Below are positions 3,202 to 38,843 of a stretch of 64,000 nt of DNA, in pieces. Below the pieces are notes generated by a model, which was not told the origin of the DNA, made no database searches, and saw only the letters and a program-made list of their open reading frames with translations. Both the position numbers and the translations under genes were made by a program. This DNA comes from Ilumatobacteraceae bacterium (GTDB taxonomy: Bacteria; Actinomycetota; Acidimicrobiia; Acidimicrobiales; Ilumatobacteraceae): contig JAFMNE010000007.1 in NCBI GenBank assembly GCA_017859395.1, forward strand, positions 1 through 64,000, read 5' to 3'. The stretch's first letter is position 1, and each line of letters opens with the position of its first letter.

Positions 3202-4256
3202 ACGTCGAACTCCCCGAGGTCGACGGTGTGATCACCGCCGATGACATCGCCGCGTCGGCTCGCCACCTTCTCGATCTGCAGACCCCCAGCGGCATGATTC
3301 CATGGTGGCCCGGCGGGCATTGCGACCCGTGGAATCACGTGGAGACCGCTATGGCACTCGATGTTGCCGGGCACCACAGGGCTGCGCGCCGCGCATACGA
3401 CTGGCTCGCCGATATTCAGGCCGCCGACGGGTCCTGGCACAACTACTACCTGCCCGACGGCGACCGCGATAACACCGTTGAAGAGGCGAAATACGACACA
3501 AATGTGTGCGCCTACATCGCCACCGGTGCGGTGCACCATGTGCGCTGCGCGCTCGAGGACGTTCGTCTGGCGACCGCTCGCGATATGTGGCCTATGGTGC
3601 GCGCCGCTCTCGACTGGGTGCTCGCACAGCGTCGCGATGATGGGCTGGTGCTGTGGGCCGTCACCGACGATGACCGCCCCTGGGATTACGCCTTGCTCAC
3701 CGGCACGGCCAGCATCCAGCATTCATTGCGCTCCGGTGCCGCCCTTGCGGCCGAGATAGGCGACGCCCGGCCGGACTGGCTCGTCGCGGCCGACCACATG
3801 GTGACGGCAATTGTCGAACGACCCGATGCATTCGCCGACAAGTCGAGATGGGCGATGGACTGGTACTACCCGGTGCTCACCGGTGCGCTCCAAGGCCCAG
3901 CTGCTGCCGATCACCTCGCGCGTGGATGGCCCACGTTCGTCATGGACGGTCTCGGGGTGCGTTGCGTAAGCGACGAGGACTGGATCACCGCGTCGGAAAC
4001 CGCCGAGGCGTCAATGGCATTTGCCGCTGCGGGTCTCATCGATCAAGCGCGAGACCTCTTGGCATGGACCCGTGGTCACCGCTGCGACGATGGCGGATAC
4101 TGGACCGGCATCGCTCATCCCCAGCGCATCACTTTTCCCGCCGATGAGCGCAGCTCGTACACCGCTGCTGCCGTGATCTTGGCTGCTGACGCCATCGTGG
4201 GCACATCGCCAGCGGCTCGGCTGTTCCGCCACGACGTGCCGACCGGTCACGCCTGA
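3198..4256 (+). CDS. Squalene-cyclase/prenyltransferase-fold alpha-alpha barrel protein
   Basis: A 352-residue protein whose repeats resemble the (alpha/alpha)6 barrel of terpenoid cyclases and prenyltransferase beta subunits. A QW-like motif, QAADGSW, lies near residue 76, and similar D/G/W-rich turns occur near the N-terminus (PSGMIPWWPGG) and the C-terminus (RCDDGGYW). It lacks the DXDD acid motif of squalene-hopene cyclases and is about half their length, so ordinary cyclase activity is doubtful. Other proteins of this fold include glycan-processing enzymes. The GTG start overlaps the methyltransferase stop (GTGA). The fixed order glycosyltransferase, methyltransferase, barrel protein suggests a shared glycolipid or polysaccharide pathway. 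The function is not known. Confidence 0.75.
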   Translation: MNVELPEVDGVITADDIAASARHLLDLQTPSGMIPWWPGGHCDPWNHVETAMALDVAGHHRAARRAYDWLADIQAADGSWHNYYLPDGDRDNTVEEAKYDTNVCAYIATGAVHHVRCALEDVRLATARDMWPMVRAALDWVLAQRRDDGLVLWAVTDDDRPWDYALLTGTASIQHSLRSGAALAAEIGDARPDWLVAADHMVTAIVERPDAFADKSRWAMDWYYPVLTGALQGPAAADHLARGWPTFVMDGLGVRCVSDEDWITASETAEASMAFAAAGLIDQARDLLAWTRGHRCDDGGYWTGIAHPQRITFPADERSSYTAAAVILAADAIVGTSPAARLFRHDVPTGHA

Positions 4257-4297
4257 CGCGCCGCCCCACCATCGGCTCCGGGCCACGGGCGCGCTTC

Positions 4298-4303
4298 TAC
4301 ACT
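4298..4303 (+). promoter_or_regulatory. -10 element TACACT of the acyltransferase gene
   Basis: TACACT ends 7 bases before the GTG at 4311 and no Shine-Dalgarno sequence is present, so a leaderless transcript is likely. Confidence 0.6.
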
Positions 4304-4310
4304 CGGCGCC

Positions 4311-5081
4311 GTGGAACGTCTCGTGCACAGCATCGCCGGCCGCACGGTGCTGTCGATATGGGCCTGGTTCGTGCTGGGCATCACCGTGATTGCCGCCGTT
4401 CCCATCGTTGCGATCATCCGTCTGGTGACCGCACCGTTCGACCGGGGCGCCTACCACGCTGGGCTCGCGTTCCGGAAAGTTGCTGTGGTGCACCAGCGCC
4501 TGAACCCGCTGTGGCGTTTCAGGATTGAGGGTGCTGTGCCAGCCGATCGACGACGTCCGTGGATCGTGGTGGCCAACCACGAGAGTTTCGTCGACATCTT
4601 GCTCATCGCCCATCTTCCGATGGAGATGAAATGGGTGTCGAAACAAACCTTCTTCAAGATTCCCCTCGTGGGGTGGTTGATGCGCATGGCCCGCGACATC
4701 CAACTGGTGCGCGGGGCATCAGGTGCTGGCGCGCGCGTCTACGCCGACGCTGCGGAACGGCTGGAGAACCGTGTCTCGGTCATGTTGTTCCCCGAGGGCA
4801 CCCGATCGGCCGACGGCGAACTCGGTGAGTTCCGCGATGGCGCGTTCAATATGGCGCTCAGCTCTGGCACACCGATCCTGCCCATCGCCGTCCACGGAAC
4901 GCGTGCTGCGCTCATCAAACATGACTGGCGCTTTGGCGCGACAACGGCCACGTTGAGGGTGCTCGACCCCATCGAGGTTCCTCACCGGCCCGACGCCGGA
5001 CGCGAGGAGATCGACCAGCTTCGCGACCGGGTGCGCGCCGTGATCGCCGACGCTCGCGCCGACATGGCCGCGGCGCACTGA
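4311..5081 (+). CDS. 1-acyl-glycerol-3-phosphate acyltransferase (PlsC/LPLAT family)
   Basis: A 256-residue acyltransferase expected to transfer a fatty acyl chain from acyl-CoA or acyl-ACP to lysophosphatidic acid or a related lipid at the inner face of the membrane. A hydrophobic N-terminal segment (residues about 12-37) serves as anchor. The catalytic HX4D motif is NHESFVD near residues 88-94 and the phosphate-binding motif FPEGTRS lies near 160-166; both match the family. The length is normal for PlsC. It follows the cyclase-fold gene after 54 bases, has its own predicted promoter, and is 1 base upstream of the MFS gene, with which it forms an operon. It may act on bulk phospholipid or on the product of the preceding cluster. 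Confidence 0.92.
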   Translation: MERLVHSIAGRTVLSIWAWFVLGITVIAAVPIVAIIRLVTAPFDRGAYHAGLAFRKVAVVHQRLNPLWRFRIEGAVPADRRRPWIVVANHESFVDILLIAHLPMEMKWVSKQTFFKIPLVGWLMRMARDIQLVRGASGAGARVYADAAERLENRVSVMLFPEGTRSADGELGEFRDGAFNMALSSGTPILPIAVHGTRAALIKHDWRFGATTATLRVLDPIEVPHRPDAGREEIDQLRDRVRAVIADARADMAAAH

Positions 5082-35852: not shown

Positions 35853-36332
35853 TCAGGTCGGCGTGTCTGACGATGCGTCTGCCCCGGTGTCGTCGTGTTC
35901 GTCATGGTCGCGATTCACACCACGGATGGCGTGAGGCCCAAATGTGGTGCCACACGTACGACACCAGAACGCTTGCTCCAGTTCTGAACCACAGGGTGCG
36001 TGCACCAATGCGGCGCCGGTCGCTTCCGACGTTCCGTATTCCTCGGTCCATCGCACCAAAGCCACCAGCACCGGTGAGAGGGCGATGCCAGCATCCGTCA
36101 GGCGGTACTCGTACCGGCGCGGGTGCTCGGAATACGGCACCTTTTCCATCACCCCATGGGCGACAAGTCGCCTGAGGCGCTCGGTCAGAATCGGCCGCGC
36201 GATTCCCAGATCACTGCAGAGATCGTCGAAGCGGCGGATACCGCGCAGGCCGGCACGCACGATCAGGATTGACCACCGGTCGCCGACAATGCGCAACGTG
36301 TCGTCGATGGGAGAGGCGCCGCGCTTGGCCAT
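35853..36332 (-). CDS. HxlR-family transcriptional regulator with C-terminal zinc-ribbon-like tail
   Basis: A 159-residue winged-helix regulator. The HxlR core (about 8-100) shows LRIVGDRWSILIVRAGLRGIRRFDDL and the ILTERLRRLVAHGVMEKVPYSEHPRRYEYRLT wing. Residues about 115-135 hold CGSE and CRTCG, a probable metal-binding or redox cysteine set, followed by a His/Asp-rich tail. ATG at 36332 is the conventional start; an in-frame GTG at 36368 with GAGG upstream is an alternative. It is divergent from fbiC, and two inverted repeats lie between the genes, so it may regulate fbiC and itself. Confidence 0.88.
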   Translation of the reverse strand: MAKRGASPIDDTLRIVGDRWSILIVRAGLRGIRRFDDLCSDLGIARPILTERLRRLVAHGVMEKVPYSEHPRRYEYRLTDAGIALSPVLVALVRWTEEYGTSEATGAALVHAPCGSELEQAFWCRTCGTTFGPHAIRGVNRDHDEHDDTGADASSDTPT

Positions 36333-36347
36333 CAGCCCATCATGGCG

Positions 36348-36380
36348 CAGAGGCTGATCTTCGCCCACCCGGAGCCTCTG
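36348..36380. promoter_or_regulatory. Inverted repeat CAGAGGCT-N17-AGCCTCTG
   Basis: Arms 36348-36355 and 36373-36380 are perfectly complementary over 8 bp. The element abuts the palindrome at 36381-36397. It lies in the 5' region of the HxlR gene and may be a second operator or a hairpin in its mRNA. Confidence 0.5.
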
Positions 36381-36397
36381 AGTTCTGTTTCAGAACT
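36381..36397. promoter_or_regulatory. Operator-like palindrome AGTTCTG-TTT-CAGAACT between HxlR gene and fbiC
   Basis: Two perfect 7-bp arms with a 3-base spacer. It lies 9 bases upstream of the fbiC -10 element, covering the expected -35 region, and is a natural binding site for the dimeric HxlR protein encoded next door. Confidence 0.7.
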
Positions 36398-36406
36398 GAC
36401 CCCGGC

Positions 36407-36412
36407 TACTCT
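36407..36412 (+). promoter_or_regulatory. -10 element TACTCT of fbiC
   Basis: TACTCT ends 7 bases before the fbiC GTG at 36420; leaderless layout. Confidence 0.6.
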
Positions 36413-36419
36413 ACGCGCT

Positions 36420-38843
36420 GTGAGCACCCACGCCGTTCCCGACCCCGTGCGCGCGCGACCCGTCGACCCCGCCACGCTGCCGACTCATGTGAGCGATCTT
36501 CTCGATGCTGGACTCAGCGAACTGATGACCACGGCCGCCGCACACCGCGACCAATTATGGGGCACCCGGGTGACGTACTCACCCAAGGTGTTCATCCCGC
36601 TCACCATGCTGTGCCGCGACGCCTGCGGCTACTGCACGTTCGCCCAGCCACCCGCTCGCCTCGACTCCCCCTACCTCTCGCCCGACGAGGTGCTGCGCAT
36701 CGCTCGCGACGGTGCGCGAGCTGGCTGTCACGAGGCGTTGTTCACCCTCGGCGAAGCACCTGAGGAACGTTACGAGGCGGCACGCGACTGGCTGCGCGCC
36801 AACGGTTGGGACTCCACCGTTCACTACCTGGCGCACACCGCCCAACTGGTATTGAACGAAACCGGCTTGCTGCCCCACGCCAACCCCGGCGCCCTCGGCG
36901 CTGATGAACTCGCGATGCTGCGCCGCGTCGCACCCAGTCAGGGAATGATGGTGGAGACCCTGCGCGACGATCTGCCCTGCCACCGTGGTGCACCCGATAA
37001 GACCCCGCAGCGTCGCCTCGACACCCTCGAGGCCGCGGGCGCAACGCGCATCCCATTCACCACCGGGATTCTCGTCGGCATTGGAGAGACACGCGCCGAC
37101 CGTTTGGCCGCCCTTATGGCCATCGCCGACAGCCACCGGCGTCACGGCCAGGTTCAAGAGGTCATCGTGCAGAACTTTCTGCCCAAACCGGGTACGGCCA
37201 TGCGCAATGACCCACCGTGCCCACCAGAGGAATTCCTGTGGTCGATTGCTGCGGCGCGCCTGGTCCTCCCCGATGACGTCCATCTGCAGGCACCACCGAA
37301 TCTGTCCGACGATTTCGGTGTGCTGCTCGATGCCGGCATCGACGACTGGGGAGGCGTGTCACCGGTGACCGCCGACCACGTCAATCCCGAACGCCCATGG
37401 CCCGCACTCGATCGGCTGCGCGAGGCCACCGAAGCACGTCAGATGGTGTTGGCTCCCCGGCTCACCATCTATCCCCACCACATCGCTGCGCGCGAAGAGT
37501 GGATTGACCCCGCATTGCACTTTGCCGTCATCGACCGGGCCGATGCCGAAGGACTCGGACGCGACGACCCCGGAGCTGTCTGGCCCGAACGAACCACCGC
37601 CGCCGATGTGGTGACCGACGGTGCGGAGGTCGTCCTCATCGGACACCGCTCCACCGCGTGGTACTCCGGCGCCCAAGCCGAGCCACCCACGCTCATCCCC
37701 GCACCTGCGGCCACCCGACCGGGATCGGCACTGCGACGGGTGCTCGACGCGGTCGCCGCCGACGAACCTATGGGCCACGACGACATCGTGACGATGTTCG
37801 CCGCCCGCGGGCCCGAGGTCGCCGCAATTGCCGAGGTCGCCGACCACCTTCGCTACGAGGCCGTGGGCGACACCGTGACCTGGGTGCACAACCGCAACAT
37901 CAACTACACCAACGTGTGCACCTTCAAATGCCGCTTCTGCGGGTTCTCCAAAGGCCCACTCTCGTTGAATCTGCGCGGCACCCCCTACTTACTCACCCTC
38001 GACGACATCGCCCAACGCGCCGCCGAGGCCGAGGCAATGGGGGCCACTGAAGTCACGCTGCAAGGCGGCATCCATCCCGACTTTGATGGTGACTACTACA
38101 TCGATGTCACCCGAGCAGTCCGCGAGGCGGCACCCACACTGCACATTCACGGCTTCACTGCCCTCGAGGTCACCGAAGGTGCTCGGCGCCTCGGCGAAGA
38201 CCTCGTCACCTACCTTGGGCGACTTCGCGATGCCGGACTGTCATCACTGCCGGGAACCGCAGCCGAGATCCTCGATGACGCCGTTCGCGCAGAACTGTGC
38301 CCCGACAAGATCACCACCGACGAATGGCTCGACTGCCACGCCGCCGCTCACGAGGTCGGCCTCGGATCGAATATCACCATGATGTTCGGTTCGATCGAGA
38401 ACCCGCACAGTTGGGCCGAGCACATGCTGCGCACCCGCGATCTGCAAGCAGTCACCGGGGGCTTCACCGAATTCGTCGGCCTGCCGTTTGTCCACATGGC
38501 ATCGCCGATCTATCTGCAGCACCGCGCCCGTCGCGGGCCGACCTTCCGCGAAAATCTGCTGGTGCACGCCGTGGCGCGCATCGTGTATCGCGGCCTAATC
38601 GACAACATCCAGTTGTCGTGGGTGAAGATCGGTACCTCCGCAGCTCGCCAGTTGCTCGCCGCCGGATGCAACGACCTTGGCGGCACGCTGATGGACGAAA
38701 ACATCTCACGCGCCGCCGGCGCCTCGCACGGCCAGCACATGGATGCCGACGCCTTCGGCGACCTCGTTGGGCCCCTTGGGCGCACCCTGCGGCAGCGCAC
38801 GACGTCATATGGCTACGTTGACGGCGTGACCGCCGGGGTGTGA
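36420..38843 (+). CDS. fbiC: 7,8-didemethyl-8-hydroxy-5-deazariboflavin (FO) synthase, fused CofG-CofH
   Basis: Bifunctional radical-SAM enzyme of 807 residues that makes FO, the deazaflavin chromophore of coenzyme F420, from tyrosine and a ribityl-uracil intermediate. The N-terminal CofG half has CRDACGYC with Cys65, Cys69 and Cys72; the C-terminal CofH half has CTFKCRFC with Cys500, Cys504 and Cys507. Both match the CX3CX2C cluster motif. The length fits mycobacterial FbiC (about 856). GTG at 36420 is placed by the promoter; ATG at 36342 would add 26 residues that overlap the operator. Other F420 genes (fbiA, fbiB) are not in the window. Confidence 0.95.
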   Translation: MSTHAVPDPVRARPVDPATLPTHVSDLLDAGLSELMTTAAAHRDQLWGTRVTYSPKVFIPLTMLCRDACGYCTFAQPPARLDSPYLSPDEVLRIARDGARAGCHEALFTLGEAPEERYEAARDWLRANGWDSTVHYLAHTAQLVLNETGLLPHANPGALGADELAMLRRVAPSQGMMVETLRDDLPCHRGAPDKTPQRRLDTLEAAGATRIPFTTGILVGIGETRADRLAALMAIADSHRRHGQVQEVIVQNFLPKPGTAMRNDPPCPPEEFLWSIAAARLVLPDDVHLQAPPNLSDDFGVLLDAGIDDWGGVSPVTADHVNPERPWPALDRLREATEARQMVLAPRLTIYPHHIAAREEWIDPALHFAVIDRADAEGLGRDDPGAVWPERTTAADVVTDGAEVVLIGHRSTAWYSGAQAEPPTLIPAPAATRPGSALRRVLDAVAADEPMGHDDIVTMFAARGPEVAAIAEVADHLRYEAVGDTVTWVHNRNINYTNVCTFKCRFCGFSKGPLSLNLRGTPYLLTLDDIAQRAAEAEAMGATEVTLQGGIHPDFDGDYYIDVTRAVREAAPTLHIHGFTALEVTEGARRLGEDLVTYLGRLRDAGLSSLPGTAAEILDDAVRAELCPDKITTDEWLDCHAAAHEVGLGSNITMMFGSIENPHSWAEHMLRTRDLQAVTGGFTEFVGLPFVHMASPIYLQHRARRGPTFRENLLVHAVARIVYRGLIDNIQLSWVKIGTSAARQLLAAGCNDLGGTLMDENISRAAGASHGQHMDADAFGDLVGPLGRTLRQRTTSYGYVDGVTAGV

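Follow-up and report, generated by a model that had tools for sequence, protein, structure and literature searches.

The HxlR-type protein encoded next to fbiC in the window, the 64,000-nucleotide stretch of Ilumatobacteraceae DNA analysed here, is very likely a dedicated regulator of FO synthase, as judged from the comparison of related genomes. With good confidence, it can be proposed to act as a dedicated, autoregulated repressor of fbiC through an operator that would cover the -35 region of a leaderless promoter. The basis for this reading is the linkage of the two genes, the co-occurrence of the operator with the regulator, a near-fixed promoter geometry and a genus in which the strict site is confined to this locus; from these we infer that the protein binds the site, that it represses and does not activate, and that it regulates its own gene. 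In the proposed mechanism, a HxlR dimer would bind the 23-bp operator covering the fbiC -35 and thereby block RNA polymerase at fbiC until a signal releases the regulator. In the divergent layout of the window, the same operator would be expected to dampen hxlR as well, and in related families hxlR and fbiC would be governed as one operon from an operator in front of hxlR.

The features of the locus are collected in Table 1. The hxlR gene most likely starts at the ATG at 36332 on the minus strand, and fbiC starts at the GTG at 36420; full-length relatives of fbiC, with about 70–98% identity, occur in most of the family. The perfect palindrome AGTTCTG-TTT-CAGAACT, first pointed out in a sequence-only reading of this DNA, is indeed what the sequence reads at 36381–36397, and the nine bases which that reading placed between it and the -10 element are exact, with 36398–36406 preceding TACTCT. 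The palindrome occurs as a single exact copy in the 2.25-Mb genome.

Table 1. Coordinates of the genes and of the observed and predicted control elements at the hxlR–fbiC locus of the window.
Feature	Coordinates	Strand	Description
hxlR	35853..36332	-	Winged-helix regulator of the HxlR/DUF24 family, 159 aa; C-terminal motif H111-C114-C124-C127
fbiC	36420..38843	+	FO (7,8-didemethyl-8-hydroxy-5-deazariboflavin) synthase, 807 aa; Radical_SAM and CofH_C domains
Predicted operator CTGAGTTCTGTTTCAGAACTGAC	36378..36400	+	Over the fbiC -35 region; core palindrome 36381-36397
fbiC -10 element TACTCT	36407..36412	+	Separated by 7 bp from the GTG start codon
Second inverted repeat CAGAGGCT-N17-AGCCTCTG	36348..36380	.	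Probably incidental

Linkage of the two genes was assessed by drawing regulator orthologues from 150 genomes of the family to which the window belongs (at least 52% identity over most of the length) and checking each for fbiC; the named relatives are labelled Ilumatobacteraceae, Acidimicrobiaceae or Acidimicrobiales. A total of 43 genomes qualified, and in 37 of these fbiC directly adjoins the HxlR orthologue. Five of the six exceptions stop at a contig break at this point, and the sixth (G079) is without fbiC. In the latter genome hxlR (L047, within 3755–4423) directly adjoins a membrane pyrophosphatase gene, no operator was found between the two, and the regulator may have another job. The pair is arranged divergently in the window's genus (g1) and in genera g11, g12, g19, g21, g23 and g26, and on the same strand, hxlR followed by fbiC, in g13, L051 and families f6, f8, f12, f18 and f19 of the order. 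In a tree whose root is uncertain and in which some rows are long, the divergent type forms a single clade (support 99/96) beside and among operon-type sequences, which suggests that the hxlR–fbiC operon is probably the older, ancestral state in the order. Adjacency of hxlR and fbiC was not seen outside the order in about 20 loci of other classes, viewed over about 1.5 kb per side. Furthermore, many family members have fbiC without the HxlR regulator; control by HxlR is therefore dispensable.

The geometry of the promoter is nearly constant. Among 21 scored divergent loci, the distance from the operator centre to the start of the -10 element was 17–18 bp in 19, 15 bp in one and 19 bp in one, with 18 bp to the first base of TACTCT in the window, and the -10 element was followed by the start codon after 6–8 nt in all 21. 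In operon-type loci of g13 and f8, the operator-to--10 distance was found to be 13 bp. Because of this spacing of -10 element, start codon and operator, the fbiC transcript is likely leaderless and the operator would lie over the -35, a position that would favour repression.

The direction of control is where an alternative has to be weighed. Using the same operator, HxlR could activate fbiC by aiding polymerase at a weak -35, like B. subtilis HxlR at hxlAB. Such a role would fit the -35 sequence covered by the operator, which in the window reads TTCTGT or TCTGTT and matches TTGACA poorly while the TAnnnT -10 is kept, and the founder of the family, Bacillus subtilis HxlR, is itself an activator (PMC7835342), so the direction is uncertain. 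However, the operator centre lies roughly 30 bp upstream of the inferred start, where polymerase must sit, which is the usual position for a repressor, and in operon genomes hxlR comes first after the site, as in autorepression; activation is thus considered unlikely. It can also be asked whether the operator serves only the autoregulation of hxlR, with fbiC a bystander neighbour, given that HxlR genes generally have such palindromes upstream. This is very improbable, since the divergent sites hold their distance to the fbiC -10 even across the long intergenic gaps of L021, L024, L026, L028 and L030, and the pair is still linked through the switch between operon and divergent layouts.

The operator was further explored with a 23-bp site matrix, built from genus g1 sites alone and tested on other genera; significant sites had p 0.005, the lowest value that 200 shuffles can give. 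Such a site was found at 17/17 divergent fbiC promoters outside g1, at 10/10 hxlR–fbiC operon promoters, and at none of 20 fbiC promoters in family members without the regulator; these sequences are related and hence not independent samples, the sites covering eight genera beyond the training genus (g13 and g16 counted). In operon-type loci the operator precedes hxlR, and a site directly before fbiC was found in none of eight; the site therefore follows the promoter driving fbiC. Comparison of the hxlR–fbiC intergenic regions, a check proposed along with the palindrome, thus found it conserved where the gene pair is conserved.

By itself, neither repeat of the window is compelling, given that about 4% of shuffled 87-bp gaps contain some palindrome with 7-bp arms and about 3.5% contain some hairpin with 8-bp arms. 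The first palindrome becomes compelling because it is conserved across relatives, and a chance repeat or a site of another factor, for which the rate of roughly 4% for the single sequence might speak, is extremely improbable against a site in 27/27 fbiC promoters with the regulator and 0/20 without, and with hxlR as the sole PF01638 gene found in the genome. This comparison lends strong support to the earlier suggestion that HxlR would control fbiC through the palindrome. The second inverted repeat, described in the same reading, is present, and its role as an operator or hairpin was rejected: in the nearest relative (L007, HxlR 94% identical) the palindrome is kept and the 8-bp arms are lost.

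The operator consensus is GAGTTC-N7-GAACTC (23 bp). In 16 genomes of the genus, the strict pattern gave 18 matches, all at the hxlR–fbiC locus as assigned by coordinates or by the genes at the locus, and no further strict site that would indicate a wider regulon. A one-mismatch match in the window's own genome (L002) was considered as an extra target and set aside, as it falls inside a coding frame. Across 151 family genomes, 19 strict matches were obtained. Of these, 16 lie beside fbiC or hxlR, and the reversed control pattern gave none. A strict match in G124 (L152 near 2903; G124:C428:9402) has no clear target gene. Two tandem, overlapping sites 22 bp apart precede hxlR in the operon promoters of g13, g16 and L051. 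The g1-type site becomes fainter in the order's other families, several of which (f6, f12 and f18) have a different palindrome, such as GTCCGTTGCGAAATGCAACGGAC, at the same place. Joint change of protein and site would produce this pattern; the f12 genomes L135 and L138 showed no clear site. In addition, similar palindromes, such as GTCAGTTGCAAAATGCAACTGAT, lie upstream of HxlR genes that are not linked to fbiC in other parts of the phylum, which is what an HxlR-type site would lead one to expect. A palindrome of type GTnAGTTGCATnATGCAACTnAC was observed across the phylum upstream of hxlR genes not seen beside fbiC (L193, L197, L200, L207 and L211), and this type is likely a general operator of this HxlR subfamily.

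A second operator-bearing locus was found in genus g19, where G019 (one contig) and G123 each have one further strict operator (L150 near 2872, G019:C1:1500371, and L151 near 2387, G123:C52:3886). Both precede a gene for an NMT1/THI5-type substrate-binding protein, whose neighbours are ribF and the genes for a permease and an ATPase; these three were recognised by reading the sequences rather than by family search. The other g19 genomes have the transporter, with no full-length regulator orthologue and no operator there. The same combination of binding protein, permease and ATPase stands beside ribF in many family members, and genus g18 encodes a binding protein of the same family (51% identical) directly before fbiC (G037, G018, G053). 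At L182:1528-4144 (G037) and in G018, G053, G078 and G008, a gene of this binding-protein family was noted just ahead of fbiC and in the same orientation. The g19 ABC transporter is a putative flavin or deazaflavin importer. A search for an FMN riboswitch at this transporter found none, the only Rfam match being a sub-threshold microRNA family that was taken as chance, and no solved relatives of its binding protein were found at E 1e-6.

A flavin or deazaflavin signal is suspected mainly because regulator, FO synthase and transporter are tied together. As a preferred but tentative guess, the ligand would be FO, F420 or riboflavin. By sensing such a deazaflavin or flavin, the regulator could conceivably, although this is doubtful, balance FO synthesis against import of FO or a related flavin, governing FO synthase order-wide and, in some lineages, a RibXY-like ABC transporter as well. 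CofD (TIGR01819) scored above the cut-off in the absence of an FbiC match (E 1e-10) in G038, which is a single contig and 99% complete, and in G054, G067, G079, G090, G112, G134, G033, G049, G007, G014 and G020. In family members of this kind, F420 synthesis from imported FO is possible.

The regulator scores 81.5 bits against the PF01638 profile (cut-off 20.8), and its AlphaFold model (mean pLDDT 82.9) matches the folds of PA1607 (2f2e), HypR, YodB, DNA-bound HxlR and DNA-bound QsrR. Residues H111, C114, C124 and C127 are invariant in 36 orthologues. They belong to a motif that follows the winged helix, H-x2-C-x(8-12)-C-x2-C (H-x2-C-x9-C-x2-C in the window), and is probably structural and zinc-ribbon-like. 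It was found in 40/40 fbiC-linked proteins and also in 34/38 relatives not seen beside fbiC, so this tail looks like a general feature, and its earlier interpretation as a special redox or metal sensor is weakened. The N-terminal sensor Cys is present in 18/19 operon-type orthologues and 34/38 unlinked relatives, and in none of the 21 proteins of the divergent clade, including that of the window; since this residue is absent, the window protein cannot use a thiol switch at this position.

Mycobacteria, streptomycetes and many actinobacteria of the environment make use of F420. As a system, the one described here is of an ordinary kind, a local one-component regulator, and its novelty lies in the target and the probable signal. 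The open literature searched (subscription papers excluded) held no paper joining HxlR with control of F420 synthesis, the two that mention both not being concerned with such control as judged from title and abstract, and within that literature it holds true, as the sequence-only reading had it, that HxlR control of FO synthase is undescribed; a word search of a 2021 review on F420 gave no passage on transcriptional regulators of its synthesis. If the regulator is a flavin or deazaflavin sensor, we would know of no earlier case in which F420 synthesis is under dedicated feedback control at the level of transcription, and the ligand of the regulator may represent a new signal type for the HxlR family. 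With a regulator dedicated to this pathway and a defined operator, the question of how cells set their F420 supply would become directly testable.

Among known systems, the hxlR gene of Bacillus subtilis likewise adjoins its target. The window protein is like B. subtilis HxlR in family, in winged-helix fold (7bzg) and in the position of the regulator gene beside the target, and differs from it in lacking the N-terminal Cys and in its target, which is unrelated. B. subtilis HxlR is an activator of hxlAB that senses formaldehyde via Cys11-Lys13, and the N-terminal Cys, which senses formaldehyde in HxlR, responds in other proteins of the family to oxidants or electrophiles (PMC7835342). The DUF24 redox and quinone sensors YodB, HypR and QsrR share fold and family with the window protein. 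These regulators use palindromic operators at target promoters and sense via their N-terminal Cys, whereas this residue is absent in the window's clade (0/21); their solved chains (about 110–131 aa) match only the winged-helix part, and not the C-terminal HCCC part, of the window protein. For the g19 locus, and for that second locus only, the relevant comparison is RibXY, a flavin ABC transporter that carries riboflavin and whose RibY protein binds flavins (PMC4418817); the operator-bearing transporter is of the same general type. For the regulator itself, the best match in both sequence and fold is PA1607 (2f2e), and the fold match spans nearly all of its 142 residues. PA1607 is an HxlR-family protein with, to our knowledge, no known target, and the window protein resembles it more closely than the sensors above.
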